From Paramacrobiotus metropolitanus (lineage: Eukaryota > Tardigrada > Eutardigrada > Parachela > Macrobiotidae): a stretch of DNA of 64,000 bases. Location of the stretch: the NCBI RefSeq assembly GCF_019649055.1, contig NW_026570330.1, positions 186,001-250,000 on the forward strand, given 5' to 3'. The notes below the pieces were generated by a model. It ran no database searches. It saw only the letters and a program-made list of their open reading frames with translations, and was not told the origin of the DNA. Below, one piece after another: positions 40,641-61,459 of this stretch. The position numbers and the translations under genes were made by a program. Positions within the stretch are counted from its first letter, which is position 1, and each line of letters begins with the position of its first letter.

Positions 40641-41891
40641 TTGCCCTTTCAGAAATAAGTAGTTTTTGAGGGTTGTGAGGAATTAAGTACTTCAACGTAA
40701 ACCGACCGCTAGCAAGCTTTACGCGAATTATTCTGCTGAGTCGTGCTGTTTTTCGAACACGTTCAGTACAATGTCGGAGTTCTTTTCAGGGGTAAAGCAA
40801 GGAACACCCACTCTGCCCGAAATAATGCGACATCTAATGTTCCTTGTTAATTAAATACAAAAGTTGGTTCAAAAAGGCGCAATTTATTGGACCAGACCGA
40901 TGATTTTTCAGCCACGTACACGATCGGCATAGGCGTACACAAAAGACTTTTTAATCTGCTTTTTCTTGCGCTTTTAGGGTCTGTGCTTTGTGGCGGTTTG
41001 TCCAGCCTTCAACAAACCGGCATCTTCTCATACAGTAGATGCACGCAAAGCCCAGGCCGCAGCGGGAGTAACTACGCAGTATGCACCTGGGCACCGGGTG
41101 TGGAAATACCAATTCGTCTTGCTTTTAGAAGAATCCATCACGATTCACACACGAACCATCACCTATATCTGTCAGCCCACTGATCCCGACACCCCCCAGT
41201 TCTTACAAATCATTGCTCACTTGCTTAGTATTAAAGCAGCCAAATTACACAGCATCATCGTTAAAGGCGGCGACGTTGCGATAGACATTTGGCACGCTCA
41301 CCGCTTTCGTTCGCGGTTTATGATTCACTGGGCCTGCACCGGCTATCTGGAGGGGTTTCGCCCACTTTGCCATCGATTGATTGCCATCAGCTGCACACTT
41401 GACGGCGTGCTACGGAGCGCCAACTTCGTGCGTCCGCCATTCCACGATTACCTATGTTTGTCCTAAAACGGGCATCCTATGGCACGATGCTATTACGGAG
41501 CGGGAACTCTCCATGGATGTTGTGGTATCCCGGCTAGTTATTGACGGCAGTGATTCAGACAATCAAACAATCCGCAATATACTGCTAGCAAGCGCGAATA
41601 GTTACCCTCCTGTCGATCAAGCCGTATATAACCGCCTTACGGCCGTTCATCAACGAATGCTAGCCACTCTGACGTATCCCGACGACTGGAAATATATTCG
41701 GATACTCCTGCAAATGTAAGATACCCAGTGGTGTTTGATGTATTTTCTAACTAATGACCGTGTGTAGATATAACGGATTCTGGCCTGACGGATCCACGCA
41801 AAACTGGGCCGATGTGGATTTACAGAATTTAGATATTTCGCGCCTTAACGGTATGATGCTGCGGGTTATGGATGCGATTTTTAGACTATGA

Positions 41892-43143: not shown

Positions 43144-46100
43144 ATGACCGAGCGCAAACCGCCAAGCTGTACAAAAAGACGAGAATGGGGTTATATGAAC
43201 TATGTACTAGTTAAAAAGGAAAACGATTGGTATCTGGGAAGGATTAAAGACCTCAGAGACGACGAATTCTTCGTCGATCTCGTATCCCGGTCGGTAATCG
43301 CGTGCTGGATCCATTCGCGTCACATTTGGCTCTATGATCCTCTCCAATATTCCTCTCACAAGAACGGGGTTTCCGTTCAAGTTGCCGTTCGACAGGGCGA
43401 CGATGGCCCGTACGCTTTTCGACCCGGCACACTGTTCAAACCGTCTTCTTCTTCCTTTAATTATGTTATTATGGGCAATCATAACCAATCCGGATTGCAG
43501 AGATACGACATCCTTCCCTGGTCCCGGATGATTATTAACCGCCTGCCTTCACCGGACGCGGCGCCGATCTACAGCATGTCGTCACCGGTGTGGGTCAAAC
43601 GCGTCGTACCCTTTGACCGAGCCTACCTAATCCAGACTGAACTACACCGTCTTGAACCGTGCTTCGCGTATGGGGTGCCGCGTGATAGGGATTCTGAGAG
43701 CGCTCGCTATACAAGTAGCTTCATAGCCCGATATAAGGAAAAAGGAAGGTACGTACGCGTCGACAACGATACAGTGACGTTTATTTTCTTGGGGCAGCAC
43801 AGAGTTGAGCCACGAGACGCGGTACTATGGCAAGAGCGAGCCTTGCTCGCCGGTTGTAAACGACATTGCGTGGAGTGGGGAGGCACTGCTCCATCGCCGA
43901 CACCCGACGCCCGCGTCTACTTCGAAGCTGTAGATTTGGATACTGGTAAGCGCGGAATTCACGTAAAAGATTTAATGAAGTTAACGGTTCGGTAGGTGGG
44001 AAAGTTGAGCAGCTATTATTAATTATTGTTTTAGCGTAGAAATTTTAATGACAATAATTTTAATTGTCGCATCGCGATGCAGATGCCGTTATTTTCGGTT
44101 GCCTTTCCCACTAGTTTATTGTATTTGCGGAAGTCCTCTGTTTTTTTTAAATACCGTAGGGCACATAGGCAGCCTCCCGCTTCCGATTCTGGAAGACATC
44201 CTTGGGCGCCTGGATCTGCCTTCTCGATTTTCTGTCAAAAGGTTGGTGAACACTGACTGGCCCCTATTATGCCGTAATGAATACTGGTGAACGCGGAATT
44301 CAAAAATATTTTAGAAATTTGTGATACAGTAGACCCAATCAATCCTACCCGGAAGCTAAACTTCTCGAGAGAGATATACTAGCAACTGTCAAATTTACCA
44401 CGTATTGGGATTCAGATGCGAATTGTATCTAGGTCAAAACGCTCGAGCGCGCTCCAACTCACGCACTGATTTGTGAGTCAGACAGATTCACTGATAACGC
44501 TGCGCGCACTGGTCAGATGGAGAATCAGTTGCTGAATTATAAAACCGAGCTGTTGAGCTCGGTTTTATAATTCGTGGCCACATTCACGACCGCACATCAA
44601 CTCGTTAAAGTTATCCTGAGCTGCTTATAAATGTTCGTGATGATTCCGTGCTGCATTAAACTGTATGAAATTACGCTATAGTCCGTAATTAAGTGTTGAG
44701 ATAATATGGTTTAATTAACTTAATTAACTAATTACTAATTAAGCAAACTTTAATGAACAGTTATAACTAGAATCATTTACGCCTAATTAGAACATTTAGC
44801 ACCTAATAATTGATTTTGCACTTAAGTAGTAGTAATTTTGCACCTGAATTTTTAGCACCTAATTAGCAATTTTGAAGAAAAACTAAATTATTGCATGTCA
44901 TTGCTTAAATTATTTTTCTTATTAAGTTTGAACTTGTTGTGTTGCGTTGACCATGGCAATAAACGGCAATAAAGGCTGATTTATTGCAGAATTCACGGTG
45001 CTCTCAGATATGGTATTTTTTTCTACTCGTTGTTGGGCCAGTCGCTATGGCAGCCTACGAGTATGGCAGCCAGCGATAGTCCCGCTTCCGGTGTGCTGAC
45101 TCACACCGAGTCGCACTCGCTGTCGAGCGCTAGATCGGCCTCGACTCAGGCAGCTTTCCGCCCAGCCTTACGTCTCGGCCAATCATCGGCCTCGATGTAG
45201 GCGGAGCCACGCCCCACTTCCACATCTCGGCCTATCAGCGTTCGTTCGCTCGTGTTGGATCTGCCCAGTATGCCGCATAGGCTTTTTCCATGCTTTGGCT
45301 CGATATGCCGTTCATTCTATTTCACTAGCATTATCATTCACTGTTTTTTGCACGATACTGCTCGCACCTCGAGCCTTTGTATGTTGGTTCTTCACTTTAT
45401 TGCTATCCACAATAAAGCCTTTTCTCACGATCGTGAGCCTTTGTTCGCCAGCTGTCACATGATAGCATATCGTTGAGTTTTCCTTCAACGGATCCTTTGA
45501 GACCACGGTGTAGACTTACATCCGTAAACGGCCGACGAGAAGACAGGGGAGAACCAAAGGTTCCTATCCCCATCTGATCGCCGCCAGCCAGAACGGTCTG
45601 GTCTCGTTTGTCTCTCTTGCGGGCAGAAAGCCTTGGCAGAAAGCCTTGGCAGACCCTCTTCTTGCGCGTGGACGGAACGTTCCTCGCGAAAACGACCCTC
45701 GGACGGACTTGGCCCGGGTCGATTAGCGGCTACCGCGGATCCCCGGACAGAACGGACGGCACGGACCCAGCGGACCCTCTCAGCCTCATCAATCGGGGTC
45801 GCCTTTGCCTTAAGTGGCACCCGCAACTTTAACAGCGCGGGATTCACCGGACGAACGAGCGGAACGACTCGGATTAACCCGGTAAAAAGGGTCGATTGAC
45901 CCTCGGTAAACCCTGTAGAGCCTCGGTAGACCCGATATAGCCGGGCTATTTTGATTTTCCACCGCCGAAAACTAGTTTCGGTCGGCTAAAAACCTTTTTC
46001 ACCCGGAAAAACGGGCTTAAAAACATCTTTCACGGGTAAAAATAGGGTTAGCCAACCTTACTAGGTCGGACCCTCGGAGCCTCGGTGTAGACCCTCTGAG

Positions 46101-49100
46101 CCTCGGTTAACAACCTTTCTAAATTTACGAAAATTAAGGAGCTAATTTCCCCCGGCTAAATTAATTTTTGGTCGGCGAAAAATAACTTTTCATAATTTTT
46201 CCGGAATTTTCGCCGATTTTCCCACGGCAAATAAAATTAATTCAAATTAAAAATTAATTGTGACGTCACGACGGCCGATTTTACATTATAAAATCTGACC
46301 AATCAGGATAGCGGGGAGATTCCCTATGCTATAGGCCCGTAATGAGTCATAGTTTTTTCGGAATTTTGCGCGCGGCACGCAGAATCGTGACGTAGGCAGC
46401 AATTTGCAAGACCACTTAGTGGTGTGTGACGTCATAGCATTCAGTGCTGTAGTATAGGACGTACGTAAGCTGTACCCTGTATTGACAACAGTACTGAGTT
46501 GCAAGTAGTACAAGCACATCCACACCATCACCCCTCACCCCACCGGACCTCTGCCCCCCACCGGACCTTAGCCCCACCGGGCCCTCGGACCTTCAACAGG
46601 CAAAAAGCCTCATCAGCCTCGGACAAGTCCCCAATAGGGATAGTCTGACTTTTTGGCCGAAGGGACAACCCGGAGGCTACTTCACAGCTCCAATAGAGCT
46701 ACCACCGAAGATGTCCGACCGATCGAACCCATACGAACGGAAGTTCGATCAAGGCTACGCCCGAAGGGATAACGCAGGCGGATACACCTTCCGTCATACC
46801 GGCCCGGGCAACGAGCCTCATTCGTCGGACTCCAACCGATCGAGCAAGTCCGGCAAATCGAACCAGTCGACCAAATCGGCCAAGGAGAAGCGAGATGCGC
46901 GGATCCTAGCGAACGACTTCACCTAATCGCCGGAGGATAGCTTCGAGGACGCACACGACCGGACGTTCCTCGAGCTACCACAGGCTGAGCCGGAGATTTT
47001 GCACGGCCCAATAGGTCGAAATGCGAACTCCGAGCCTGCGGCTGGACTTGTGCACCCAATAGGTGCCTCGCCAGTCTTCTTCCCGGCCATCACCCCGGAC
47101 AATGGAGCCTCGAGCCCGGCGCTAAGCAGCTCCGAGGTGTCACCGGACATGGGTGACCCTGTGCAGCCCCAACAGGGCGGCATGGCGGGATCAAAACCGA
47201 GGCAATGCCAGATGAGCCCGAGCCAATTGAAGGGTACGGTATCATCGACCCGGGGGTGACCCACAAGGCGGGTTCACCAACTAAGTCCCCACCGAGCCTG
47301 GCTCAAAGCCCCAAACCAACGGGCAACAACCCAAAATCTTCGGACAACAGTCGGAAATCGACGTCGCCGGACCCGAAACGACCCTACGGGACTCCGAAGG
47401 CGACCACACCGGACCCTAGGACCCTCACCGGGACTCCAACTCGGACTTCGAACTTATCGAAGCCGACCTCGGGAACTTCCAAATCACCAACGGGAAGGTT
47501 GCAGTCGGCTAGAGCCTCGGACCCCGAGGCTCGGACCCCCAACACCGGGGCTCGGACTCCGACCCAAAAGGTCGGAACATCCAAAACCCGGCCGGCAACC
47601 CCCACTTCTTCGGCGAAAAAAGCCGTTTCTCCGGTAAAATTCCGGATTTCATCGGTCGGAACGGACATAGCCTCCTCGGACGAGGTTGAGGGTTCGGTTA
47701 CCGAGGTTAACTTAACCTCGGTTGGCGGACCGTCATCCCCGAAAACCATGACCCCCGGCAGTGAACCCATGCTGACCCGAGCCAGCCGGATTGAAGCCTC
47801 ACAGGCTACTCGCAAGTCGAAATCGGCTTCACCGAAGGTTGCAAAGCCAACCACGGACCTTCCGGCTACACCACCGATGTTCGAACCCTCGAACTCCGGG
47901 GCCAGCAAAACCCCATCACCGACCGATGATATATTCGACGGAACCGTGTTACCCAATAAGGTAACCGAGCGTCCGGATAGCAGGAAGGGCTTCAGGTTTC
48001 CGTCACCGAAGCAGTACCCAGGCTCACACATCGGAGCCTCGGACTATACGCCTCGGCGGTACCTGACCAAGACCCCTCCGGAGAAGATCGATAACCCACA
48101 GGTCCTCCGTCAACGGATTTATGAGCTGCAAAACCAGCTCTTGGCCGGGCAAAACATCGTCGAATCGACGGAGAATGTTTTGTCCCAGACGGTAACTTCG
48201 CACAAGCAGGAGCGCAAGAGGCTCACTGATGAACTTGAACATGCGAACACCGTCATTGATGACCTTACCCAGGAGATTGAACGGTTAGAGGCCCAGTTGC
48301 AAGTAACTGAGGAGCCCTGCCGTTACGATCAGACCGAAGTCACCAGACTCCAGGACATGCTGGAGCAGTCTCGGGCCGAAGTGGTCACCCTGCGCCAAGA
48401 CTTGGAGCAGCGGTTAGAGACCCTCGGCTACTCCGAGGCTGGCTCGGCCGAGCTTCACAAGATGTTCGGCCGGGTGGATGAATATCGGGAAGAGAAGCAT
48501 CACCTCAAACAGGGCATCATCGGCCTGGAGGGAGAGATCGACGAACTAAACTCGGAACTCGACTTCCTCCGGACAGCCTATGAGAACCTCCGGTTGAACC
48601 AGAACGACCCGGAGGGTGTAGCCGTAGACCTTCGGCTATGCCAGGCCCAACTCGGCCAGCAGATCCTCGCCCTCACCACCCATCTTCAGAATGAAACAGC
48701 CCGGTTTGAACAGGCTCGCGTTGAGAATCTCGCAGTCATCGAGGCTCAACGAGCCCGGATCACACAGCTAGAGTCTGAGAAGACCCGACTGGAAATAGAC
48801 CAGGATCGTCTCCTAAAGTACCAACAGGAGCTTTATAACTTCGGTACGGATGTATCCAACAAGTACACCGACCTGTGCGGGAAGTACAACCAGCTGGCCC
48901 AGGAACGAGAAGACCTGGGCATCGAGGTCGCGTGCCTGAAGGAGGAAAAGACCCACCTGGAGGACTCCATGACCGAGCAACCTCCATCCTACCGGACTAC
49001 CCAAGAGCAGGATAAATGTCAACAGATCGATGACTACCTGCGTCGAGACAACCCCCTGCTGAACCCAATAGGTCAAATGGGGGCTCTCGAGGGACAAATC

Positions 49101-52100
49101 TACCAGGTCGGAATGCTACGGACTGAACCATCGGTTGGACCCATACCGAGGCCACCGGTAGTACCGTCAGCCCCGGAGCCGGAGCGAAACACTTCGACGG
49201 CTACCCCTAACGCACCGACCCATTCCACTACCACAACAACTACGGCTTACGGAGGGACATCCACAACGACGATGTTCTCAACCGGAACTAGGCCCGTAGC
49301 ATCGACTTCAACCGGACAAGACCAGCCCCGAGGCTCGAACCCCCGAGCCCCGGCAACCGGACCTGGCATGGGACTTCGACCGCCGGCGAACGCTTCGGTG
49401 GGAAGCTCTCAACCCAATTCGGGGAATTCCAACCGGGACCGACAACGTTCAGGCTCCCAGAACACGTACCCGCCGAGGATCGAAGTACAACCCGTATCGG
49501 CAGGGCAGCGCAATTGGGCTGACCCGGTACGCCCCGGCTATCCAGATAACGCACCACAGCAGCCTCGGCTAGATAACCGTGACCCAATAGGTCTGGTTGG
49601 CCCCGGCGCTGTTGGCAATGTCCCCTATCAGCCCCAGCAAGGCAACATGGGCCCAATAGGCCCGGTGCCCCAGGCTGACCAGTATGTGGTTATACCACCA
49701 GGGATGTGGCTCGACCAGAACCGAGTCCTCCAGAGGATGCCTGGGTATGTGGCACCGAACCAACCGCCGAACCAGGGGTACGGAGCACAGAACCCTCCGC
49801 CCGGACCGGGACAGCCGCAACAGCCGGCACCCCCTGGCAACCCTTATCCTCAACCACAGCCGTACCCACCTCAACCCGCCCCGGCTGCGCAGAACCAGCA
49901 AGCGGCCTATCCAATAGGTTGGAACCCTCCGGTAGCCCAACAGGCAATGCCGGTGGCCCAACCTCGTCAAACCCCACCACCCGATGAGCAGGATATTGCT
50001 CAAGCCCGACAAGAAGGCTACGAAGAAGGCCGGCGCCGTTATGAGGAACGGAATAACCGGATCCTGGCTCGGAAAAACCGGGCGGAGTTGCCGAAGTTTA
50101 ACGGCGACGGAGCCAAGGTGGAAGGCTGGATCACAAAGATCCGGCGAATCTATCGCTCGGAGGCTGACGACGTCGCAATGACGAACGTCGCCTTCATGAC
50201 GGAGCTGGAGGGCGCCCTTACTGGACAAGCCCTGGAGTGGTACCAGAACCAGTCAGCTCTGGAACCTGAGGAAAATGGATGGACCGTCGATTATTGGCTG
50301 CAGCAATTTGCGGCCCGGTTCATGGACCCTGACAAACAAGTCACGGCCGTGGCGGACATCACCACTAGGAAGTACATGCTGGGGCAAGAGACCCCCGAGC
50401 AGTACTATGACGCCATCATAAACCTCAAACAACGAGGCAACCTCACCGATGAATTAGCGGTCTTCTACCTGCGGACGAACGTCACGGAGCCAATCCTTCG
50501 GGCAGCTTTAGACGTCCGAATGCCGAAGACGACGCGTGAGTTCCGGGACTACGTACGGGACTTCACCCGGGGAAAGCCGATGTATCAGGTAGTTAAAGGT
50601 GGTAATACCACCAACTACATCACTGTCAGGACGGCGACTCCCGTCTCCGCGACTCAGCCGGCTCCCGGATACATCCAACCCAATTCGCCAGGTTACCAGA
50701 ATGTGCAACCGGGGCTTCATCGACAGAGCCCTCCGGCGACACCACCCCCTCAAGCCCGTGGTCAGATTGAACAGACTTGGGCGGCAATGGCGGCGTTGAA
50801 CCTGAATGGGGCCCCAACAGGGACCATGGTCACGCCGCCTGCCTATGGAAATAGCGGCCAACCGAGCCAGCCTCGGAGCCCCGGCTACGGCCAACCTCAG
50901 AGCCAGGGTTACTCCGGCTATGGCCAGCCCCAACAGGGCTATGGCCAGAACTCCGGCTACGGCCAACCTCAGAACCAGGGGTACGGCTACGGAGGCGGAT
51001 ATGCACGCGGTGGAGCCTCACAATATGGTGGCTCCGGCGGAAGATGCGGCGGCAAGAATCGCGGCGGAAACTTCGGCAACCGCGCGGGTGGAGGCGGCCA
51101 GGCCCAGAATGTGCAACGGCAGCCCCGGACACCACAGCAGGAGGCTCGCCTACAGGCAGCCTATGTCGATCGGATGGAAGCCAAGTTCTTCCAGTTGACC
51201 CAGAACGGAACGTTTACCTGCGGTCACTGCCTATGGGACAACCACAACCAAGCGAGTTGTGGCTATGCCAACCTCCGGCCGGAAGACAATCCGAACCGGA
51301 GATGGTACCTGGATTGGAGGTACCGGTACGATAATGGATGGCCATTAGGTTCGGCGAATCAGAACTTCCCGAACATCGTACCACCCCCGCGCCCCCGTCA
51401 GCAGAATGCCGGCGGATTCGGCGGCCAAGGCAGCCCTAACCGGCAGCCTGGCCAGGGAAATGGAGGGAACCCCCAGAATGGCGGTCGACCCCCATTGGCA
51501 ACCCCGCCACCAGCCCAACGGCCCCAACTGCCGCCGTCCCCGGCCCCCAATAGGGGCCCGGGCGGATTCCAACCGGCAGTTGGTGGGCCCGTCCCGGGTA
51601 CATCCCAGGGAAACGCTTGAGGTCGATGAGCTCCGGTGACTCGTTCGACCTCTGTCATCCGACGGAACCACCGGATAAGGATAACCCCACTAACCGGAAT
51701 AACCCTTTGGACACAACTCGGAACCTCAACGAGGATTTAGCCTCCGCAACGGTCAGCGAGGCCGCTAGAATCTTAGCGGCGGGGACGGTAGCCCAATTCG
51801 GCGCCGAACATCCCCGGTTCGGATACTCGGAGAATCAACCCGAACCTCGCCACGCCGATAATGCGGCTCCCGGACCAGAACAGGTACCCGGGAGGATCGG
51901 CCAAGGAACTTGGATCCGATCGGCAGCCGGGACACAGAATGTGCCCGGACCCCCAGGTCCAGAAGGTGAAGCCGGGGATGTCGGCCGGAGAAACCGGATC
52001 CGACCAGCCGGGACGAGAAATGTCACCAGGCTGCCCGGACGGCTCAGTGCCCAATTAGGCATTACGAGCCACGGGCCAAGCGGAGAATCGGGACGCCGAC

Positions 52101-55100
52101 CCGCAACCTTACAGGACGCCAGAATGACGCCTGAACCGTCCTTGGTAGGCCAACCAGGTAGACGGCCGGAGGCTCCGACCGACGAAGTAACGGAGTACTT
52201 CGAAGACTGGGAATCAGTACCTTTGGAGGCACAGGTGCCCGCCTACTGTCTGCAGCAGGAAGCGGACCTCTTCCAGCGACAACCGGCACGAACTGTAACC
52301 GGATCGCGTACGTTCTTCAACATGCAATATAACCTCTCAACCCTGCGAGAGGGTCAACCATCTATGGAGGAACGGATAGCAAGCCGGATACACCCGGTGG
52401 AAACCGCCGAATCGTTGACGGACGGAGTAGCTAACCGTTCGGAGGCGAATCACTTGGTTAAGGAAGTTCCATCCGGGCTACCAGGCTTACCATCCCCGAC
52501 AGAACGGCTAAGTCCACACCGACCCTCGGAGGGCTACCCACAAGACGGAGTAGACCCACCAAGGCTGGACAGAATTGCATCACCGCCGCGTGTAGACACC
52601 AATAGTGTCCCCGGCGGATCAACAACACCTTTAATCCCGGTCGAAGTGACCATTAGGGAAGTAACGATTGAACCGTTACAGACCACCGGGCGACCAAAGG
52701 TAGTCCGGGCATGGACACACGAAGTTCAGATTGGACCAGCCACAACCATGGCTATGTTGGACACCGGAGCCGAAACATCCCTAATAGAGGAGCGTTTCTG
52801 CCGGGCCAACAACCTTAAATTGGAATCCCTGGGCTATTTCACCAAAATACTCGGTGTCGGCGGACAAGTCGCCTTCATGGTAACCCATTGTTGTACCGTA
52901 CCGGTAACCTTGCAAGGATTCACCAGCCCCCATACCTTCCACGTCCAACCCAATAATTCGGACGTTCCTGTACTTCTTGGATGCGACTATCTGCACTCCA
53001 AGTTTGTCTTCACCCGGGCGCCAACGACCCCCAATGAGGGTCAGCGGAACCCATCTTCGGGTGTAGTGCAGCCCATCCCGATGCCAGAGGCATCGGGCAC
53101 GGCAACGAATGAGGCTCGGATAAATCGGCTTGATCACCCGATGAACCCCGGACCCCCGATCTGCCCGCAATGCTCGGACACCGAACGAAGCCTCGTAACG
53201 GAGCTGCAAATCCATAACGCCATCGAACAATACTTGGCGAAAGTACGGACGACCCGACTGGAACCAGTCCGAGGGATACTAAAGTCTATCCCGATACCAG
53301 AGGCATCGGCCTCTGGTATACTCAATCAAAGGTACCGAACTTGGTTTACCGGCATTCGACACCTCCTTGAAACCCGAACGATCGGCATAAAAACCGCACT
53401 CGAACGAGTTGGTGCAAGGACGGACGACCAGATCCGAGCTGCAAGGGAGGAATGCCAAGAAGTAATCGACCTAACTGAAGCCCTAGAAGAAGAAATTATC
53501 GAGTGGGAAGAAGAGCGGATCGTACTCCATGCACAATTCGTGGAACATCAGCTCCCCATACCGGCGATACTGGAAATCCAGTCCCACGAATTGGGCCGAC
53601 GACTCATTTGGCACTTCCGAGATCCTTATCACTTCGGTACCTTGGATACTGCCTCCTTTTGGAGTCGATACGGCGAAGACACCCGTATAACTAGGGTCGT
53701 GCCGGACTCCGAACCCCCGATTGAGCCTTGCAACTGGCACCAGGCTAAGAAAGTAAGGTACTCACAGTTTGTACTCACCGAGGCACAAGCAGCCATGGTG
53801 ATCACTGCAGCTAGAGCGGCCCAGGGTTTGCCTGAATACCTTGGCAACATCGAACCCGAAGCCCGGGGAGATGCTCCGATGGCTTTTCAGACGGCTTTGC
53901 GACTGATTTTCGCGGCCCGACTTGGCCACCATCACAGCCATTACACCCTGTACTGCGCGTATCGGAACAACAACATTCCGCCCCGACTTCGGACGGCGGT
54001 GGCCCGGTTAAGTACGCCAATGAGAGACACAGTGGTGGGATTATGGTTGCGTGACTTCCTGCTAACAGCGGAGCGATGGCATAAGGAGTACCAGTACCAT
54101 CCGGACGACGAAAAGGATGTCGACGAGCCTTCGACCCTCTCGGAATGGTGCCGGACCCATCGCCACTTGCCACCCGGGTTTACATCACCACCGATGCCCG
54201 AGGGTAAGTCATCTTACAGGTATAACATGTGGCCTGGTTCATCATCCTCGGGCAGGAACCGCCGAAGACGCGAAGCCCGCCGAACTAAAGCCGAAAAGCC
54301 CGGACAGGAAGCCTCGGAATCGCAGTCAACCTGTACCCAGGAGGCTACATCTTCAAACCACCCAGGACGACGGGATAAGGATGATGACTCGGAAGGCTCC
54401 CACTTCGGTGGCGGAGCCCCGGTCAACGTGGACTTGGAATAAAAGAGACCGGTAGCTGGACCCCAATAGGGTTAGGCTAACCGCAAAACCGGTCACACGG
54501 ACATGACGACGCCTCCAATAGAGAAGTATACCCCAGATGGAACCCAACCGAGGAGCCGCAGATCGCTGGCCAACCACCTCGCAGTTCGAACCACGACAAG
54601 CTAAAAACGCAGACCGCGCCTATTAACCATGATCGGCTACCTAACCGGACCCTCAATAAGGGATACGGAGGTAAAGCCCGCAGACCGCGCCCGATAACCA
54701 CACCCGTTACCAGGCCGCACCCTCAATAAGGGAAACGGTCCAAGAGCAGTGCAGATCGTATTAACCATGATCAGCTACCCAAACCGGACCCTCAATAAGG
54801 GACACGGCGGTAGACTTGACCCTGCGTCCAAACGGCCTGGAATATAACTTTTGCCCGAGCCAACTTCCACTGTACCGCTGCAGATCGCAGTTGTAACCAC
54901 GTTCTGCTACCATCGAAACTTATAGAATCAGTTACAAGTATGGCTGTCCGTGGCGATCTCAGCGAGGAAGGCAACCTGCAGACCGCACCTAACCACGACG
55001 CTATTACGACCAAGTAACCTGTCTTTCGATCCAAACAGATTGCTCGATACCTCACCGGACCCTAAAGGCTCCGGGGTACGAGGCCCAATAGGCCTCCACC

Positions 55101-58100
55101 TGTGGACGAAAATTCTAAGCTCCGTCCCTCCGACGCGGGAAGCAACGGTACCTACATCGCGGGAACGGAAATACCTCGGATCGAAAGACAGAGTCCAAAG
55201 ACGTGGACCTGACCGGACTCCATCCCATGAAAGGCTCAACAGCTTTTTACCTTGTGAACCCAAAAGGTTCCGAGGCGAGTGCCCAGCAAGGCCTGGCCAG
55301 GACCACCAAAATATGGATCTCACCTTACCCTCCTGAAGCGGACGGTTTGAAGCGAAGGCGAATATGGCACAAGAACCATTCGATAACTTCCCCGTGAACC
55401 CAATAGGTTCCAGGGAAGGTGCCTAATAGGCCGCCAGAAAGTTAGCGGAGCCTGATCCTCCGCGGACGACTAAGGCGGAAACTTAGACCTCGTCGTCAGT
55501 AGAGGATAACCGAACCGGCAACCCTCGGACTACCGTAGTTTTGGAAGAGAAGCCCCTAAACCACGTTAGTCCGGACCTTCGTACGAAAGGCGGTTTGTCG
55601 GCGCAATGCAGCATCATCAGCCGCATTGCACCGATAACCCACTCCGGCGGAAGAGCCCGGAATCGAACCTTGGATGGATCCCTCGGATAGACCCGATAAG
55701 TACGAGTTCAACCTGGACCGTACCGGACGTCTCCCCTGGTCTCCCCTGGATGAACCGGACAGAATGTTCTGGTCTCCGGCGACAATGACAGGAGGCGAAC
55801 CGAGCCAAGCAGCGAGGGGATTCAACCGAACTAAAGGGTTAGCCGACCCCCGACGGTTAGCTGGCTCCAGCTGGATCAGCGACTCCGCCGACCTGCTATC
55901 CACGGAGCTAAAAAGGGAACATCATAGGCCGTGGCAGAAGCCCGACCCACCATTGACTTAGGGAGTAGACCCCAATAGGGATACCCCGACGTCCAACCCT
56001 CCAACCCTCCAACCCTCCAACCCTCCGACCCTCGGACTAGAAGGGTCGAACCTGAAGGAAACCCCAGTTCACCGGGATAAATCGCACGAATAGCGGCTGG
56101 CTAGCGGTGAACTGTGACTACACAATTCATCTCTCGTCAGCCCCTCCGGCAGAAGGATCCTGGAGGCTGAGCCCCGGATAAAGTGGAACGTCACATCGGG
56201 ACGAATCGTACGAATAGCGACTGGACAAGCACAACTGCGCAACACACAGTTGTCCTTGCTCAGGTCCCTCCGACAGGGGAATCCCGGCTGACCTGTTCCG
56301 TAACTCGGACTATAGAGCCCAATAGGCTCTTACCCTCGGATCCTACCAGCCCGGACCCTGTTGGCATAGGAAGCAACAAGCCCTATACCGATGAAGCCCA
56401 GGTGACAGCCTGATCATCGGACCCTTCGCACGTAAGGAGGTTGACCAGGAGTTCCCAGCATGATCTGCCGGGTATTCCTGCTCGCACCCAACCGGCAGAA
56501 GGACTCTCGGAGGATGCAAGCCACCGCAGATCGCGTGTAACCACGATCTCTACCTCACCAAGGATGCCCTTTGAGGCCCAATAGGCCTCCATTCCACACC
56601 GGAACGGATGAAGTTCCTCGGGATCAGCCGAGGAACGGACCATCATGGATTCCGTCTTTAAAACTTAGAGTGTCTACCTCGTGGCTTAGACCCAACTAGG
56701 TCTTATACAGCCGCCGAGGAACCTCTGTCTGCATAATTCTTGCTAGTCACCCGGTGGACATCTCTAGCATCAAGCGGACTCCCACCAGAGCATGTTGGGC
56801 CAGTCTCGTTACCGAGGTTTGGACCCTGTCCAGAGGCCAACTGACCCCGGACACCGAGGCTAACTGACCCTCGGATACCTGCTCGGACCCTGTCCAGAGG
56901 CACTGACCCTCTCCAAGTTACCCAATAGGCGACGGGAGACGTTAAAAAGGGTTTTGCCCGGGCAGAATGCCTTGGGACCAGCCTTAGCGGATGCTGACTA
57001 CCTTACCACCGAGGCTACCCCGGACACGGAGGCTGCCCCGGGTAGCAACTTCATCTTACCGGTGAGACCCTCGGTAGAGTTGCCCAATAGGCGACCTGCA
57101 CCGTTAATAAGGGTTTTACCGGGAGGAAGCGACCATCAGACTGTCAACTATCAATCAACCGAGGCCAACCGACCCTTGGACCCTCGGACTTTAACCTTCA
57201 AAGTCCGGAACCCACCCTTCACGTGTTACCCAATAGGTAACCAGAGAGGGACTTGGGATTTTTGACCGGACAGAACACCTAGCACATCGCGTAACCACGA
57301 TCTGCCGGCACAGCCGAGGGTACATCGGGACTTTACCTCGAGTACCGAGGCTGCATCTATCGACCCTTCGAACCTGGCGAATATCCTCTCCGAGTTACCC
57401 AATAGGTGACAGGAGACGAACATGGGATTTTCAGCCGGGCGGACCATCACTGTACCCATTTGCCAGAGCAGCCGAGGGTATAACCCGGACTCTAACTCGA
57501 GTACCGAGGCTGCCAATGGATTTAGACTCAGTAACCGAGGCTGAGCTTGGACTCTGATTTTGCAACCGGAGCTGATCCTTGGTTACCGAGGCTACCATCG
57601 GACTTCAAAACTTTGAAGCTAACCGTATACAGGGTCGGACTCCCGCACAGAGGCCATAACATCGCTCGGACCAGAACGTGGCTTACACTGCACGGTGCGG
57701 TGTAAACCACGTCCATCAACCATTCAACCCCATGGAGACCAGGCATCAACCGGTCCTTGTTACCCAATAGGTGACAGGACATGACATTACGGTTTTTGCC
57801 TGGATGGAACCTCGGATCACCGGACATTTCGGACGATCCACCGATTAATAGACCCAATAGGTCTTATCCTGCACCCAGAGAGGGTACCTTACGGTATTCG
57901 CGGAAGCGACGGTGCCTCTCCATCAACCTTACCCGATGAACCTCGGTCGGCTACAAGTACGAACTTGTTTGACCCGGCTATGAAGGTTCCAATCAAGCTT
58001 TTACCGAAGGATCCTGGTCGGAAAGTGTGTTTCACGCCCGTTTCACACCCGACACCGGAGATCCATACTCTTTACCCGAAGTCAATAGGGTCGAACCTTC

Positions 58101-61100
58101 GACCCTCGGTGAATTGAACCGGTACCATTGGGTATCCCGAGAACCGATGCCTCGGACCTAGATGACCGGACTTCCAGTGGACTGGAGCCCCCGTGAAGCG
58201 GACGAGCTCTAGTCGGAATAAGCACCCGGCCCAAAGCCCCGGACCAAAGACTTTGAGTTTATTTTTTTTTCTAATCTCAAAATGATGTTCTCATTTTATT
58301 GATCTTTTTTAACCTGCTCACCAGGAATTGTGATGTTATTTTTACTAGAGAGAGAGACAGACGGAATAATACTTTATTTTTTTACTTTTCGCCGTTACGG
58401 ACCCGACCAACAGATGCCTACACCGGTCCAACAATACCACCGACCGACCTTCGGATTTCGGCCGTGAGTTGTATCGCCACCACGGGTCCGGAGGAGAACG
58501 CGGCTCGAGACACCCCATCATCGGATACCTCCGAGGCGCAGCCACCGACCCCAATAGGGTCGTGTGCGGAGCGGGCACTGGAGCGGTATGAGGCCGGTCC
58601 TTCGCAGGGGCTCGGACTCCCGCCCAGAGGCATGTTGGGCCAGTCGCTATGGCAGCCTACGAGTATGGCAGCCAGCGACAGTCCCGCTTCCGGTGTGCTG
58701 ACTCACACCGAGTCGCACTCGCTGTCGAGCGCTAGATCGGCCTCGACTCAGGCAGCTTTCCGCCCAGCCTTACGTCTCGGCCAATCATCGACCTCGATGT
58801 AGGCGGAGCCACGCCCCACTTCCACATCTCGGCCTATCAGCGTTCGTTCGCTCGTGTTGGATCTGCCCAGTATGCCGCATAGGCTTTTTCCATGCTTTGG
58901 CTCGATATGCCGTTCATTCTATTTCACTAGCATTATCATTCACTGTTTTTGCACGATACTGCTCGCACCTCGAGCCTTTGTATGTTGGTTCTTCACTTTA
59001 TTGCTATCCACAATAAAGCCTTTTCTCACGATCGTGAGCCTTTGTTCGCCAGCTGTCACATCGTGTATCTGTTATCACTGGTGGGAACATATTTCAGTTT
59101 TTTTCTCTTAGTCATAGAAGAAAGATGAGTAACAGATACGTGCGCAGCAGTCGTGTCGCAGATACAAGCGGGCTGCTGATATCTGACAGTTGCTACTGAA
59201 ATAAAATTAATGTGAAAGCAGTATGTGTCCCTGATGGATGACACATCCCTTATGGATGACACGCCCCAACACATCAGAATGCCTTGGACCAGTAATAAGC
59301 AGTGGACTACCGGAAAAAGCGCATGAATTGTGCTGCAGGGCCGCAGGCGCGTATATTAGTCCGCATATGCTTGATGGTGATTATAATTTAATTTACCAAT
59401 CTTAACGGAATGATGTAATTTCGTTTACTCAATGTAGCTTAACTGGTTAATTAGCGTAATTAATTAATGTGGTCAGACTAAATTACGCAGTAACTCAACC
59501 TATACATCCTTGCTAATACAAAATACTAACAGTAATCACAAATAGTAATTACCTTAAAGGAAATGGCTATAGACACCCCCTTTCACCCACGTTGTCTATA
59601 GGCACCCCTTTCGCACCCACTTAGACTGTAGGCACCCCGTCGTCGTGTGCGAACTATCGTGGCATCCCCCTATTGTCTGTTGCTATTTTTTAAGGTCGGA
59701 TTTTCGTGACCTTAGAGAATTTGCAAGAAGTCAGTGCACTACTGGCTCCGGATTTTTGCCTGTTGCAATGTATGTCTGTTGCTGCCGCAGAAACGGCTCT
59801 GTAATAATAATGTCTGACAGTTTTACAACAGCCTGAACGTCACATTCGCACCCAACGCTATTTTTTAAGGTCGGATTTTTGTGACCTTAGAGAATTTTCA
59901 GAAAGTCAGTGCACTAATGGCTCTGAATTTTTTCCTGTTGCAGTGTATGTCTGTTGCTGCAGCAGAAACGGCTCTGTAATAATAATGTCTGACAGTTTTA
60001 TATACAGTCTGAACGTCACATTCGCACCCAACGCTCTTTTTAAGGTCGGATTTTGTGACCTTAGAGAATTTTCAAGAAGTCAGTGCACTACTGGCTCCGG
60101 AAATTTGCCTGTTGCAATGTATGTCTGTTGCTGCAGCAGAAACGGCTCTGTAATAATGGTGTCTGGCAGTTTTATACAACAGCCTGAACGCCGCACTTCC
60201 GAAGCACATTTGCACCCAACGTGCATGGGTGGCAGACGCCATCTAATAAAAAAGGGTGCCTGTAGTAAAACAGGGTCCAAAAGGGGGTGCCTATAGCAGA
60301 CGGGGGTGAAAGGGGTGCTTATAGTCCACTACCCTACTAATCTAGTTACAAAATCGGCAATCAGCGAATTACTCATAGTCTGTTACTAATAGAAACTTTA
60401 ACGCTTAAGTCTAATGGGGTTAAATCGATTTTAAGGCGGGCATGTGACCCCCGTCCCCGGAATTTTTTACAAAGTGGGCACTCGAAAAGTTAAGTAAGAA
60501 AAACTTTTCTTATGAGCCCTTCTTTCTGTGTTTTTAGAGTCTGCGCTTTGTGGCAGGATGTTCTTGAGAAGCCTTCAACAAACCGGCATCTTCTCATCGA
60601 TGCACGCACACTGCAGGTCCAAGCGGTAGCAACCACGTTTCGTGCTCCTGGGTGCTGGAAATGGGAATACTTATTAGTCGTGCTCTTGGAAGAATCCATT
60701 ACGATTCTAACTCGAACCATCACCTACATCTGTCAGTCCGGCGATAAGGACAGCCACCGCTTCTTAACACACATTGTGCACTTACTTAGCCTTAAGGCAA
60801 CCAAATTAGACACAATCCTCATCAAAGACGGTGAACTTTCGATAGACATTTGGCAAGCCCACCGTATTCGTTCGCAGTTCATGATTCACTGGACCAGCAG
60901 CAGCTATCTGGACGAGTTTCGCCCACTTTGTCAACATCTGATCGTCGTTAACTGTACACTTTGCGGCGTGCTAGAGAGCCCTAACCGCTCAAGTCAATTA
61001 TCATGTGACCCCGTTTATTCTAAAATGGGCGTCGTGAGGCACGACCCGCTTATGAATGCCGAACTCTCCCTGAAAGCCGTGGTATCCTGGCTAGTTATTG

Positions 61101-61459
61101 GCTGCAGTGATTCCAAGTCTCAGATGCTTCGCACTATATTGTTAGCCAGCGAGAAGAGTTTCCCTCCTGTCGAGCAAATCGTTTCTGCTCGATGTGCGGC
61201 CGTTCATAAGCGGATGCTGACGACCTTGACGTATCCCGACGATTGGAAGGGGATTCGGACTCTCCTGCAGATGTAATAACTAATAAGATACCGAGTGCGT
61301 TTGATTCAGTTGCTAATTTACCCGGTCTACTGTAGATACAACGGATTCTGGCCGGATGGATCTACGCGAAACTGGGACGATGTGGATTTACGGGATTTGG
61401 ATATCTCGTGCCTAACCAACATGACCCTGCGCGTACTGGATGCCGTTTTCCGACTGTGA
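43144..61459 (+). CDS. F-box protein, intact array copy 3, split by a 16.3-kb intron
   Basis: Exons: 43144-43991, 44173-44241, 60538-61272 and 61336-61459. All junctions are GT-AG and the phases agree (2, 2, 2). The total is 1,776 nt, 591 residues plus stop. Exon 1 encodes about 280 residues starting MTERKPPSCTKRREWGYMNY, with VLVKKENDWYLGRIKDLRDD, a Tudor-like feel that is unproven. Exons 2 and 3 make a classical F-box: LPLPILEDILGRLDLPSRFS then VCALWQDVL, for Skp1 binding in an SCF ubiquitin ligase. The C-terminal 270 residues (TITYICQSGDKDSHRF ... TYPDDWKGIRTLL ... YNGFWPDGSTRNWDDVDL) are unrecognised but conserved in all three copies. Intron 2 (44242-60537) contains the 14-kb LTR element. 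Whether that intron is still spliced is unknown. Confidence 0.75.
44534..44573. repeat. Perfect 18-bp hairpin with GTTG loop
   Basis: GAATTATAAAACCGAGCT (44534-44551) and AGCTCGGTTTTATAATTC (44556-44573) are exact inverse copies around a 4-nt loop. It lies in intron 2 of F-box copy 3, before the LTR element. Confidence 0.8.
45031..45459 (+). repeat. Left LTR of the 14-kb element
   Basis: 429 bp, TG...CA. It holds the polyadenylation signal AATAAA (45411-45416) and a perfect 14-bp palindrome CTCACGATCGTGAG (45424-45437) near its end. No clear TATA box. Confidence 0.92.
45460..46710 (+). other. 5' leader of the 14-kb element
   Basis: Long untranslated leader rich in short complementary segments, such as CCCGATATAGCCGGG, CCGAAAACTAGTTTCGG and CCCGGAAAAACGGG. 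It has a tandem AGAAAGCCTTGGC pair near 45626-45651 and two CAATA-loop hairpins (46632, 46691). It probably forms a structured RNA; packaging is an inference. Confidence 0.5.
46711..47259 (+). CDS. Upstream Ser/Pro-rich frame of the 14-kb element
   Basis: A frame opens with ATG at 46711 (MSDRSNPYERKFDQGYARRD), stops at 46924-46926 and continues open in the same frame to 47259, overlapping the Gag start. Composition (Ser, Pro, Asn, Gly) and codon choice resemble the Gag N-terminus. It could be an upstream ORF or the decayed original start of Gag. Confidence 0.4.
47205..51620 (+). CDS. gag: Giant Gag polyprotein of the 14-kb element
   Basis: 1,471 codons from ATG 47205. Approximate order: Ser/Thr/Pro-rich region (10-290); long coiled coil rich in Glu, Leu and Gln (300-600); Pro/Gln/Gly-rich linker (650-940); capsid-like retrotransposon Gag domain (960-1120: EGALTGQALEWYQNQSALEP ... 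TRKYMLGQETPEQYYDAI). A Gly-Tyr-Gln repeat tract and Gly/Arg patch follow (1225-1300). A single zinc knuckle CGHCLWDNHNQASC (C-x2-C-x4-H-x4-C, 1339-1352) precedes a Pro-rich tail. Usual Gags are 300-600 residues, so this one is exceptionally long. Its stop lies 3 nt after a slippery heptamer. Confidence 0.85.
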   Translation: MPDEPEPIEGYGIIDPGVTHKAGSPTKSPPSLAQSPKPTGNNPKSSDNSRKSTSPDPKRPYGTPKATTPDPRTLTGTPTRTSNLSKPTSGTSKSPTGRLQSARASDPEARTPNTGARTPTQKVGTSKTRPATPTSSAKKAVSPVKFRISSVGTDIASSDEVEGSVTEVNLTSVGGPSSPKTMTPGSEPMLTRASRIEASQATRKSKSASPKVAKPTTDLPATPPMFEPSNSGASKTPSPTDDIFDGTVLPNKVTERPDSRKGFRFPSPKQYPGSHIGASDYTPRRYLTKTPPEKIDNPQVLRQRIYELQNQLLAGQNIVESTENVLSQTVTSHKQERKRLTDELEHANTVIDDLTQEIERLEAQLQVTEEPCRYDQTEVTRLQDMLEQSRAEVVTLRQDLEQRLETLGYSEAGSAELHKMFGRVDEYREEKHHLKQGIIGLEGEIDELNSELDFLRTAYENLRLNQNDPEGVAVDLRLCQAQLGQQILALTTHLQNETARFEQARVENLAVIEAQRARITQLESEKTRLEIDQDRLLKYQQELYNFGTDVSNKYTDLCGKYNQLAQEREDLGIEVACLKEEKTHLEDSMTEQPPSYRTTQEQDKCQQIDDYLRRDNPLLNPIGQMGALEGQIYQVGMLRTEPSVGPIPRPPVVPSAPEPERNTSTATPNAPTHSTTTTTTAYGGTSTTTMFSTGTRPVASTSTGQDQPRGSNPRAPATGPGMGLRPPANASVGSSQPNSGNSNRDRQRSGSQNTYPPRIEVQPVSAGQRNWADPVRPGYPDNAPQQPRLDNRDPIGLVGPGAVGNVPYQPQQGNMGPIGPVPQADQYVVIPPGMWLDQNRVLQRMPGYVAPNQPPNQGYGAQNPPPGPGQPQQPAPPGNPYPQPQPYPPQPAPAAQNQQAAYPIGWNPPVAQQAMPVAQPRQTPPPDEQDIAQARQEGYEEGRRRYEERNNRILARKNRAELPKFNGDGAKVEGWITKIRRIYRSEADDVAMTNVAFMTELEGALTGQALEWYQNQSALEPEENGWTVDYWLQQFAARFMDPDKQVTAVADITTRKYMLGQETPEQYYDAIINLKQRGNLTDELAVFYLRTNVTEPILRAALDVRMPKTTREFRDYVRDFTRGKPMYQVVKGGNTTNYITVRTATPVSATQPAPGYIQPNSPGYQNVQPGLHRQSPPATPPPQARGQIEQTWAAMAALNLNGAPTGTMVTPPAYGNSGQPSQPRSPGYGQPQSQGYSGYGQPQQGYGQNSGYGQPQNQGYGYGGGYARGGASQYGGSGGRCGGKNRGGNFGNRAGGGGQAQNVQRQPRTPQQEARLQAAYVDRMEAKFFQLTQNGTFTCGHCLWDNHNQASCGYANLRPEDNPNRRWYLDWRYRYDNGWPLGSANQNFPNIVPPPRPRQQNAGGFGGQGSPNRQPGQGNGGNPQNGGRPPLATPPPAQRPQLPPSPAPNRGPGGFQPAVGGPVPGTSQGNA
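51608..51652 (+). promoter_or_regulatory. Programmed -1 ribosomal frameshift signal
   Basis: In the Gag frame the bases read G GGA AAC (51608-51614), a canonical X-XXY-YYZ slippery heptamer. The Gag stop TGA is at 51618-51620. After a 4-nt spacer, GAGGTCGA (51619-51626) pairs perfectly with TCGACCTC (51645-51652), an 8-bp stem. Slipping back one base enters exactly the frame of the protease ORF. Spacing and layout match known retroviral gag-pro sites. Confidence 0.85.
51617..54442 (+). CDS. pro: Protease ORF of the 14-kb element (no polymerase)
   Basis: 941 codons in the -1 frame relative to Gag. The first in-frame ATG is 51626, but expression by frameshift from 51608 is more likely. About residue 382 (52760) is the retropepsin active site LDTGAETSLIEE, followed by a flap-like GVGGQ and VLLGCDYL, matching the I/V-L-G-x-D-x-L end of the fold. 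The N-terminal 370 residues are low-complexity Pro/Arg/Gly/Thr. The C-terminal 450 residues (TRTIGIKTALERVGARTDDQ ... FWSRYGEDTRITRVVPDS ... basic tail RRRREARRTKAEK) match nothing I recognise. Reverse transcriptase motifs are absent. Retropepsins act as dimers to cut Gag in particles. Confidence 0.85.
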   Translation: MRSMSSGDSFDLCHPTEPPDKDNPTNRNNPLDTTRNLNEDLASATVSEAARILAAGTVAQFGAEHPRFGYSENQPEPRHADNAAPGPEQVPGRIGQGTWIRSAAGTQNVPGPPGPEGEAGDVGRRNRIRPAGTRNVTRLPGRLSAQLGITSHGPSGESGRRPATLQDARMTPEPSLVGQPGRRPEAPTDEVTEYFEDWESVPLEAQVPAYCLQQEADLFQRQPARTVTGSRTFFNMQYNLSTLREGQPSMEERIASRIHPVETAESLTDGVANRSEANHLVKEVPSGLPGLPSPTERLSPHRPSEGYPQDGVDPPRLDRIASPPRVDTNSVPGGSTTPLIPVEVTIREVTIEPLQTTGRPKVVRAWTHEVQIGPATTMAMLDTGAETSLIEERFCRANNLKLESLGYFTKILGVGGQVAFMVTHCCTVPVTLQGFTSPHTFHVQPNNSDVPVLLGCDYLHSKFVFTRAPTTPNEGQRNPSSGVVQPIPMPEASGTATNEARINRLDHPMNPGPPICPQCSDTERSLVTELQIHNAIEQYLAKVRTTRLEPVRGILKSIPIPEASASGILNQRYRTWFTGIRHLLETRTIGIKTALERVGARTDDQIRAAREECQEVIDLTEALEEEIIEWEEERIVLHAQFVEHQLPIPAILEIQSHELGRRLIWHFRDPYHFGTLDTASFWSRYGEDTRITRVVPDSEPPIEPCNWHQAKKVRYSQFVLTEAQAAMVITAARAAQGLPEYLGNIEPEARGDAPMAFQTALRLIFAARLGHHHSHYTLYCAYRNNNIPPRLRTAVARLSTPMRDTVVGLWLRDFLLTAERWHKEYQYHPDDEKDVDEPSTLSEWCRTHRHLPPGFTSPPMPEGKSSYRYNMWPGSSSSGRNRRRREARRTKAEKPGQEASESQSTCTQEATSSNHPGRRDKDDDSEGSHFGGGAPVNVDLE
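53294..53319 (+). repeat. Perfect 11-bp hairpin inside the protease ORF
   Basis: ATACCAGAGGC (53294-53304) pairs exactly with GCCTCTGGTAT (53309-53319) around an ATCG loop. Another CCAGAGGCATCGGG word lies at 53082-53095, so the left arm is duplicated within the ORF. Confidence 0.75.
54443..58632 (+). other. 4.2-kb structured non-coding region of the 14-kb element
   Basis: No supported ORF (shadow frames only). It contains about 18 CAATA-loop hairpins, five copies of a 58-nt module (CAATA hairpin, then GGGWTTTT and CCGG), and about seven copies of a GCAGAYCGC...TAACCAYGATC module. A 15-bp copy of the LTR edge (CATGTTGGGCCAGTC, 56791-56805) is internal. Most bases can be assigned to these motifs or to CCGAGGCT/CCCTCGGA-type spacers, so it reads as an RNA region under structural constraint. 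Confidence 0.6.
58633..59060 (+). repeat. Right LTR of the 14-kb element
   Basis: 428 bp; differs from the left LTR by a C/T, an A/G and one T in a run. AATAAA at 59012-59017, palindrome at 59025-59038. Confidence 0.92.
59567..60330. mobile_element. Inverted-repeat element carrying a 175-bp satellite
   Basis: Both ends carry inverted ~55-bp termini built from a doubled CTATAGGCACCCC word: CTATAGACACCCCCTTTCACCC at the left, and its complement-like GGGTGAAAGGGGTGCTTATAG at the right. Between them lie three tandem units of 175 bp (59692-59866, 59867-60041, 60042-60216), each with AAGGTCGGATTT, GTGACCTTAGAGAATTT and ATGTATGTCTGTTGCTGC. No transposase is present. It lies in intron 2 of F-box copy 3. 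Confidence 0.7.

Follow-up and report, generated by a model that had tools for sequence, protein, structure and literature searches.

In the tardigrade Paramacrobiotus metropolitanus, a stretch of 64,000 nucleotides (contig NW_026570330.1, positions 186,001 to 250,000; referred to here as the window, in whose numbering positions are given unless a contig or piece is named) contains a long terminal repeat (LTR) element at 45031–59060, with its sense on the + strand. A preliminary description of the window had claimed about 28 hairpins with a CAATA loop and covarying stems over 46632–58556. The locus raises the question of whether these hairpins are selected RNA structures and, if so, what reads them. 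That they are sense-strand RNA hairpins with a fixed loop under selection is close to certain. The explanation that we favour, with a probability of roughly 0.55, is that they would be dispersed Gag-binding signals for packaging or assembly, with a loop specific to the element family.

Hairpins with one loop on one strand of the element

The core CCCAATAGG was found 20 times in the 64 kb, always on the + strand and always within 46630–58558, where 0.31 would be expected and none of 100 shuffles had more than 2. As had been described, it recurs through the leader, the open reading frames (ORFs) and the 3' region; the cores and stems listed at that time were all found, the one placed at 49655 lying at 49654. 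On the + strand of the element, CAATA was the loop of 18 of the 94 perfect pentaloop hairpins (at least four Watson–Crick (WC) pairs), and the next commonest loop occurred 3 times. Perfect hairpins with a CAATA loop numbered 0 on the antisense strand of the element and 0 on either strand of the remaining window. When the loops CAAYA, CAATTA and CAATAA were included, the element showed 22 hairpins against a mean of 0.18 in shuffled sequence (maximum 2 in 200 shuffles) and 0 antisense. The same loop set gave 2 hairpins on the + strand of positions 1–45030, against 0.68.

A fixed rule that allowed G-U pairs (pairs one to three all formed, with four or more of five positions paired and three or more of them WC) gave 31 sense hairpins and 0 antisense in the element, after removal of one double count from the 32 rows of the script. 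Outside the element (~50 kb), it gave 4 hairpins on the + strand, all with the loop CAACA. The hairpins of the element by this rule are as follows.

46626..46642, + strand, hairpin in the leader, loop CAATA
46685..46701, + strand, hairpin in the leader, AGCTC/GAGCT; other copies have GGCTC with GAGCC
47003..47019, + strand, hairpin in the leader; copies show compensatory changes
47051..47067, + strand, hairpin in the leader, GCACC/GGTGC
47164..47180, + strand, hairpin with loop CAACA
47948..47965, + strand, hairpin in ORF1, hexaloop CAATAA
49579..49595, + strand, hairpin in ORF1, peptide DPIG
49648..49664, + strand, hairpin in ORF1, GGGCC/GGCCC; other copies have GGACC/GGTCC
49906..49922, + strand, hairpin in ORF1; loop (49912) retained in 1 of 11 other copies compared, a gain or loss
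49932..49948, + strand, hairpin in ORF1, loop CAACA
50809..50825, + strand, hairpin in ORF1, loop CAACA
50925..50941, + strand, hairpin in ORF1, loop CAACA
51015..51031, + strand, hairpin in ORF1
51542..51558, + strand, hairpin in ORF1, different codon position, peptide PNRG
52046..52063, + strand, hairpin in ORF2, hexaloop CAATTA
52594..52610, + strand, hairpin in ORF2, peptide TNSV
54458..54474, + strand, hairpin in the 3' noncoding region
54648..54664, + strand, hairpin CCCT/AGGG
54718..54734, + strand, hairpin CCCT/AGGG
54787..54803, + strand, hairpin CCCT/AGGG
55080..55096, + strand, hairpin GAGGCC/GGCCTC
55395..55411, + strand, hairpin GAACC/GGTTC
55967..55983, + strand, hairpin
56314..56330, + strand, hairpin AGAGCC/GGCTCT
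56573..56589, + strand, hairpin GAGGCC/GGCCTC
57079..57095, + strand, hairpin with a G-U pair
57225..57241, + strand, hairpin GTTACC/GGTAAC; copies show compensatory changes
57394..57410, + strand, hairpin with one G-U pair
57759..57775, + strand, hairpin with one G-U pair; GTTGCC/GGCGAC in copies C1 and C5
57849..57865, + strand, hairpin
58546..58562, + strand, hairpin CGACCC/GGGTCG, the last ahead of the 3' LTR

Among the 31 hairpins, 28 distinct 6+6 stems occur (the 32 rows of the script give 29). The stem is ~6 bp long, pairing being high at pairs 1–6 and dropping at pair 7. Some hairpins are local duplicates (three with CCCT/AGGG, five in a 59-nt unit), and not every CAATA site is paired: those at 45410, 52951, 53228, 58432 and 59011 are unpaired, and that at 47954 is the hexaloop. 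The two LTRs of the window copy showed no hairpins of the CAATA type. The array described earlier is thus present, with 31 members instead of about 28 and in a longer element, and the variant loops CAACA and CAATAA do keep their pairing.

Five longer copies of the element gave 43, 45, 39, 47 and 41 sense rows by the fixed rule, with 0, 0, 0, 1 and 0 antisense; a site may be counted twice in these rows, the pieces contain some flanking DNA, and copy C23 (in two pieces, the others in three) holds a duplicated stretch. The longer copies carry roughly 40 hairpins each. A covariance model (R1) trained on the hairpins of the window itself returned 72 matches at E <= 0.5 in 254 kb, every one of them in sense orientation and within the window element or pieces of its family, referred to as family A; single E-values were weak (0.14–0.5) because the motif is short. 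There were no R1 matches in the rest of the window or in the pieces L025, L026 and L034–L036. Among the Rfam covariance models, none exceeded its gathering score over 45000–59100; one match to mir-551 (57523–57594, E 0.28, 23.1 against 51 bits) lies off the listed hairpins. A search of viral contigs with the Gag knuckle alignment found no relatives, and one exact hairpin match, in a single contig (L037), was taken as chance. An origin of the array by chance or base composition is ruled out by the shuffles, including a control for the best motif of any kind.

Stems change in pairs around a conserved loop

Covariation was assayed within the element on 34 of the 36 CAATA sites, taken regardless of pairing; only the two unpaired LTR sites were excluded. 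Cells were paired in 77.1% of cases against 48.5% in shuffled sequence, and the covariation score was 0.669, compared with 0.198 (sd 0.034) for shuffled sequence and 0.237 for the best slid version. Both sides vary at all 6 stem pairs.

The same question was asked between copies with 113 reference hairpins from 4 copies, chosen as paired, of which 98 had counterparts, giving 566 hairpin–copy comparisons. Double changes at paired positions left the pair intact in 117 of 139 cases, these pooled family A comparisons being non-independent (one site enters via several references, and C23 has its duplicated stretch). With the partner slid by +1, +2, +3 and −1, the corresponding values were 13/59, 23/100, 31/104 and 26/82 (22, 23, 30 and 32%). 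Counted as distinct cases per reference, 40 double changes were paired and 9 broken; for the 70–82% identity class alone, 62 of 73 were paired. At least one compensatory change was seen in 32 of the 98 reference hairpins with a counterpart, and the divergent copy C68 kept both loop and pairing in 17 of the 21 window hairpins whose counterpart was found.

The loop is the slowest-changing part of the hairpin. Its positions 1, 2, 3 and 5 were substituted at 1.7–2.8%, position 4 (T/C) at 9.3%, the stem at 10% and the flank at 14.2%. Single changes from a WC pair, counted as distinct cases, gave transversions 41 times, G-U 40 times and A-C 20 times, the last two differing at p 0.013 if independent. 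The excess of G-U over A-C on the sense strand is moderate evidence that it is the sense RNA that folds. A coding repeat is ruled out as the cause, because loops within ORF1 and ORF2 begin at codon positions 1, 2 and 3 and the peptides that they encode differ.

The claim of a fixed loop on stems that change in pairs holds. Near-empty shuffles and paired double changes together give strong support to selected RNA structure, in coding as well as noncoding sequence. Both refuting tests named in the preliminary description, on shuffled sequence and on other genomic copies, came out in its favour, some single and double changes between copies nevertheless breaking pairs.

The window copy is a deleted member of a giant element

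Genome-wide scans were made over the 169.8-Mb, 533-contig assembly of P. metropolitanus. The other features of the element are as follows.

45031..45459, + strand, 5' LTR, TG...CA, 429 bp; target-site duplication TCGT at 45027–45030
47205..51620, + strand, ORF1, Gag-like, 1471 aa; coiled-coil-like part, capsid-like region, Gly/Tyr- and Arg/Gly-rich stretch and one CCHC knuckle with a conserved extension
51617..54442, + strand, ORF2, 941 aa; retropepsin domain; reads across the internal deletion at 53758/53765
54443..58631, + strand, 3' noncoding region, with the highest hairpin density of the element
58632..59060, + strand, 3' LTR, 2 mismatches and 1 indel against the 5' LTR; target-site duplication TCGT at 59061–59064

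The small difference between the LTRs suggests a young insertion. Pfam matches of ORF1 are weak. In at least 15 copies, the match to ORF1 residues 1227–1249 (50883–50951), a Gly/Tyr repeat, is split over two frames; the window copy is open there.

Several things had escaped the preliminary description: this copy is internally deleted, its pol lies in the missing part, and related families share the layout with other loops. Other copies align up to 53758 and pick up again at 53765. Among the 40 scored matches to a 201-base probe across it, the junction is private to the window, whose own match alone spanned it. Judged from match coordinates, other copies have ~7.6 to 19.8 kb between the halves flanking the deletion point. 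In four copies with both LTRs (C68, C5, C4, C1), the end-to-end length is 22.7–26.7 kb; the larger gaps would imply an element of up to about 34 kb, provided that no foreign insertion lies inside. In C4, the stretch missing from the window encodes reverse transcriptase (RT), RNase H, H2C2 and rve in that order (L016:787–4476). The pol order protease, RT, RNase H, integrase was therefore found, with the protease in the window and the remainder, lost from the window copy by deletion, in C4. The element is a giant Ty3/Gypsy-type LTR retrotransposon of 23–27 kb or more. It may be noted that the window copy lacks RT, RNase H, integrase and other ORFs even though its LTRs are almost identical; these were either lost after insertion, or the copy was mobilised by relatives.

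Downstream of pol, C4 has ORFs of 1532, 790 and 546 aa (L016:4639–9237, L017:1–4011), that of 790 aa being cut by the end of the piece. The long post-pol ORFs of C4, including that of 1532 aa, gave no Pfam matches, and no relatives of the 1532-aa ORF (residues 300–1500) were present among 8000 candidates scored.

Around the element, an ORF at 36348–37253 matches the Gag-derived PNMA domain (26.3 bits against a Pfam cut-off of 25), a duplicated stretch (41004–41891 and 60570–61459) flanks the element on both sides with 73–80% identity over longer blocks, and a ~175-bp unit stands in three tandem copies at 59682–60195, ~0.6 kb past the 3' LTR.

Related families carry other loops

A protein search with Gag residues 930–1471 gave one match at E <= 0.001 among 7998 scored candidates, P0003 of P. 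metropolitanus, whose residues 567–1096 map at 100% identity to contig C201 of this genome. Its own family (family B) was represented by the gag loci L026–L033 and the downstream pieces L034 and L035 of the copy at C5:1.07M, and a further family (family C) by C19, a single 5.5-kb piece. The genome holds additional gag families with about 62% identity to P0003.

The core CCCAATAGG was absent from the family B pieces (L026–L033, L034 and L035). Family B shares the layout of the window element, but its loop is CACRKAA, of 7 nt, and the pieces examined contain no CAATA hairpins. In the 10-kb pieces L034 and L035, CACAGAA was the loop of 5 and 6 hairpins (at least four WC pairs); 200 shuffles averaged 0.01 and 0.0 such hairpins with a maximum of 1, and the commonest loop of any kind reached 2. 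Among eight family B gag copies, 22 of 22 double changes stayed paired, which represents few events because the copies are closely related, and 10 of 44 single changes broke the pair. In the family B ORFs, the loop occurs in three codon positions, mostly the third. Neither loop sequence pairs preferentially in the other family: CAATA did not in family B (16 contexts), nor CACRKAA in family A (21 contexts). Over the genome, GACCACAGAAGTC was counted 299 times against 7 for its reversed control, and CCCAATAGG 1360 times against 710. A second hairpin type, the perfect hairpin CCGACCTCAGGTCGG, is present in five copies at L035:7467–8070, in the 3' part of family B.

Family C probably uses a 6-nt loop, AACRRN. 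Twelve AACRRN hexaloop hairpins were found among 90 occurrences (maximum 2 in 60 shuffles), and AAC hexaloops numbered 15, whereas no trinucleotide-by-length class exceeded 5 in 100 shuffles. The consensus is provisional, since one and the same 5.5-kb piece served both to find the loop and to count it; the control over all motifs supports the loop itself. Some counts speak against a clean split between families. AACRRN hairpins numbered 3, 3, 4 and 1 in family B (shuffle maxima 2, 2, 2 and 1), 4 in the family A copy C68 (maximum 4) and 3 in the window outside the element, at 59100–64000 (maximum 1); in the gag piece of family B, the commonest loop class had only 5 members, where shuffles reached up to 4. 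As AAC loops exceed shuffles in family B too, B and C are not cleanly separated. The loop difference between families is shown for A and B, and provisional for C.

What may read the hairpins

A fixed loop on a stem of free sequence points to one sequence-specific RNA-binding surface that reads the sense RNA, and the hairpins are very probably recognised by a specific protein. Pairing of the loops with one another (kissing) was rejected on direct reading, as the loops are not self-complementary and so cannot pair among themselves. Gag binds the genomic RNA of retroelements, and is for this reason the default candidate. In ORF1, the C-terminal part of Gag has a Gly/Tyr- and Arg/Gly-rich stretch and a CCHC knuckle, conserved in all three families, followed by a strongly conserved extension. 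Over the knuckle region family A is 54–56% identical to B and C, which are near-identical to each other by eye. Likeness of loops parallels this, family A having CAAYA and the loops of B and C both containing ACR, with Gag compared in three families, too few to prove co-evolution of loop and Gag.

The RNA of the window copy carries ~31 hairpins, each a ~6-bp stem of free sequence with a fixed loop CAAYA, sometimes CAATTA. We propose as their most likely reader the element's own Gag, which would contact them by its CCHC knuckle and conserved extension together with the Arg/Gly-rich stretch. Many weak, like sites may jointly single out the full-length RNA, compact it and bring about its packaging into particles. 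A packaging or assembly role of Gag at these sites is somewhat better than an even guess. The multivalent Gag- or coat-binding site suggested in the preliminary description fits these data and gains strength from the family-specific loops; the role is what we infer from them. Sister families with other loops further suggest that the loop may serve as a family tag restricting each Gag to its own RNA. On the wider and more tentative view, for which the odds fall a little short of even, several giant retroelement families of this one genome would each have evolved a loop code of their own (CAAYA; CACRKAA; AACRRN), repeated along the RNA and co-diverging with Gag, as a self/non-self label that reserves the capsids of a family for its own RNA.

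Several results weigh against reading the array as Gag-binding signals under selection. The pol region has fewer hairpins than the ends of the element. Between copies, 22 of 139 double changes break pairs, as do 138 of 291 single changes (153 stay paired); for references from the window, double changes in ORF1 and ORF2 were 14 paired to 10 broken, against 16 to 1 in the leader and 8 to 1 in the 3' noncoding region. Single sites are dispensable, some window hairpins being absent from other copies. The strand argument is only moderate, because the G-U to A-C ratio in family B was only 15 to 10 and flanking C/T changes exceed A/G changes (4214 against 3303). The knuckle region gave no match to RNA-binding proteins of known structure, and the capsid region matches Pfam Retrotrans_gag weakly, in family B only (14.1 bits against a cut-off of 24.1).

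Other long ORFs (1532 aa and more) could also encode the reader instead. Such a protein of the element, or a host protein, might use the hairpins for nuclear export, translation control or RNA stability instead of packaging: several long ORFs have no Pfam matches, one of them having no relatives on search, sites spread over the whole RNA would suit an export protein or one coating the ribonucleoprotein (RNP) equally, and the tie between Gag and loop is indirect. Loop similarity nevertheless tracks Gag similarity in the three families (Gag alone being compared), and a host reader does not easily explain differing loops among families of one genome. We consider another reader unlikely, at a level that still deserves attention. 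That the hairpins chiefly compact a very long RNA, or shield it from attack by small RNAs or RNases, with an incidental loop, would accord with the giant size and with structure across leader, ORFs and 3' region. It is improbable, as conservation is highest in the loop and the stem sequence is free, and one loop sequence, one strand and a family-specific loop would be unnecessary for it.

Retroelements go through a single-stranded cDNA stage, at which the motif could act as DNA, as cDNA hairpins or as protein sites in reverse transcription or integration. The bias of single stem changes to G-U on the sense strand favours sense RNA instead, and the window copy's LTRs are free of CAATA-type hairpins; we give this explanation very little weight. 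Least weight of all goes to an array derived from local duplication of one hairpin, or from a repeated encoded peptide, with the structure unselected. Some hairpins do share flanks (families D5 and D8) and four ORF1 sites encode PIG, yet the stems are of 28 kinds, the sites occupy three codon positions with different peptides as well as noncoding sequence, and double changes between copies are paired. As the whole explanation, it is refuted by the 117 of 139 double changes that stay paired.

If the wider view of family loop codes is correct, an LTR element would here possess a dispersed code of packaging signals, legible straight from sequence, of a kind that we did not find described. Evolution displays the sites openly, as dozens of stems on a fixed loop and as natural loop swaps between sister families, so that loop specificity becomes directly testable using short RNAs and Gag fragments. 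Such an array offers a route to RNA–protein codes from one genome, and the family-specific loops suggest how giant element families could escape cross-packaging.

Comparison with known systems

In the literature searched, which left most subscription journals outside, no dispersed fixed-loop hairpin array was found described for an LTR retroelement, in agreement with the lack of precedent noted in the preliminary description. The main text, in its available portion, of a curated repeat study of the tardigrades Hypsibius exemplaris and Ramazzottius varieornatus is without hairpin or stem-loop (PMC11071193).

Giant Gypsy-like LTR elements, such as planarian Burro (>30 kb; PMC6431247) and plant Ogre, resemble this element in size and in having extra ORFs. 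The likeness to Burro is one of description, and the two mentions of hairpins in the available part of that review both concern Helitrons, not LTR elements (PMC6431247). Like the Psi signals of retroviruses and Ty1, the hairpins would be cis RNA structures presumed to bind Gag in the selection of RNA. The retroviral and Ty1 signals lie near the 5' end of the RNA, whereas the window copy has 31 like sites from the leader to the 3' region; Ty1 Gag had high affinity and low specificity (PMC8396678).

The closest likeness is to the dispersed packaging signals of single-stranded RNA (ssRNA) viruses such as MS2 and enterovirus, in which many hairpins of the genomic RNA share a short loop motif on variable stems (PMC6281560, PMC7793301). 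Parechovirus is also named among them (PMC6281560, PMC7793301), as are, in abstracts, satellite tobacco necrosis virus (STNV) and hepatitis B virus (HBV). The idea of packaging by many weak sites rests in these papers on systematic evolution of ligands by exponential enrichment (SELEX), cross-linking and cryo-electron microscopy (PMC6281560, PMC7793301). Features that mark such signals were found here: multiple hairpins with a shared loop motif are spread over the element RNA, and both motif and pairing are conserved in evolution. The MS2 loop rule, (x)xYA (PMC6281560), resembles CAAYA of family A; the likeness fails for families B and C. Enterovirus E (EV-E) has 29 putative sites, with a triplet of 75–100% purine as the motif (PMC7793301). 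Coat-protein binding has been shown in the ssRNA viruses, whereas this element is known from its sequence. It differs from them further in being an LTR retroelement, in a loop stricter than the motifs of the papers cited, in an array that is visible from sequence alone, and in a loop that differs between sister families.

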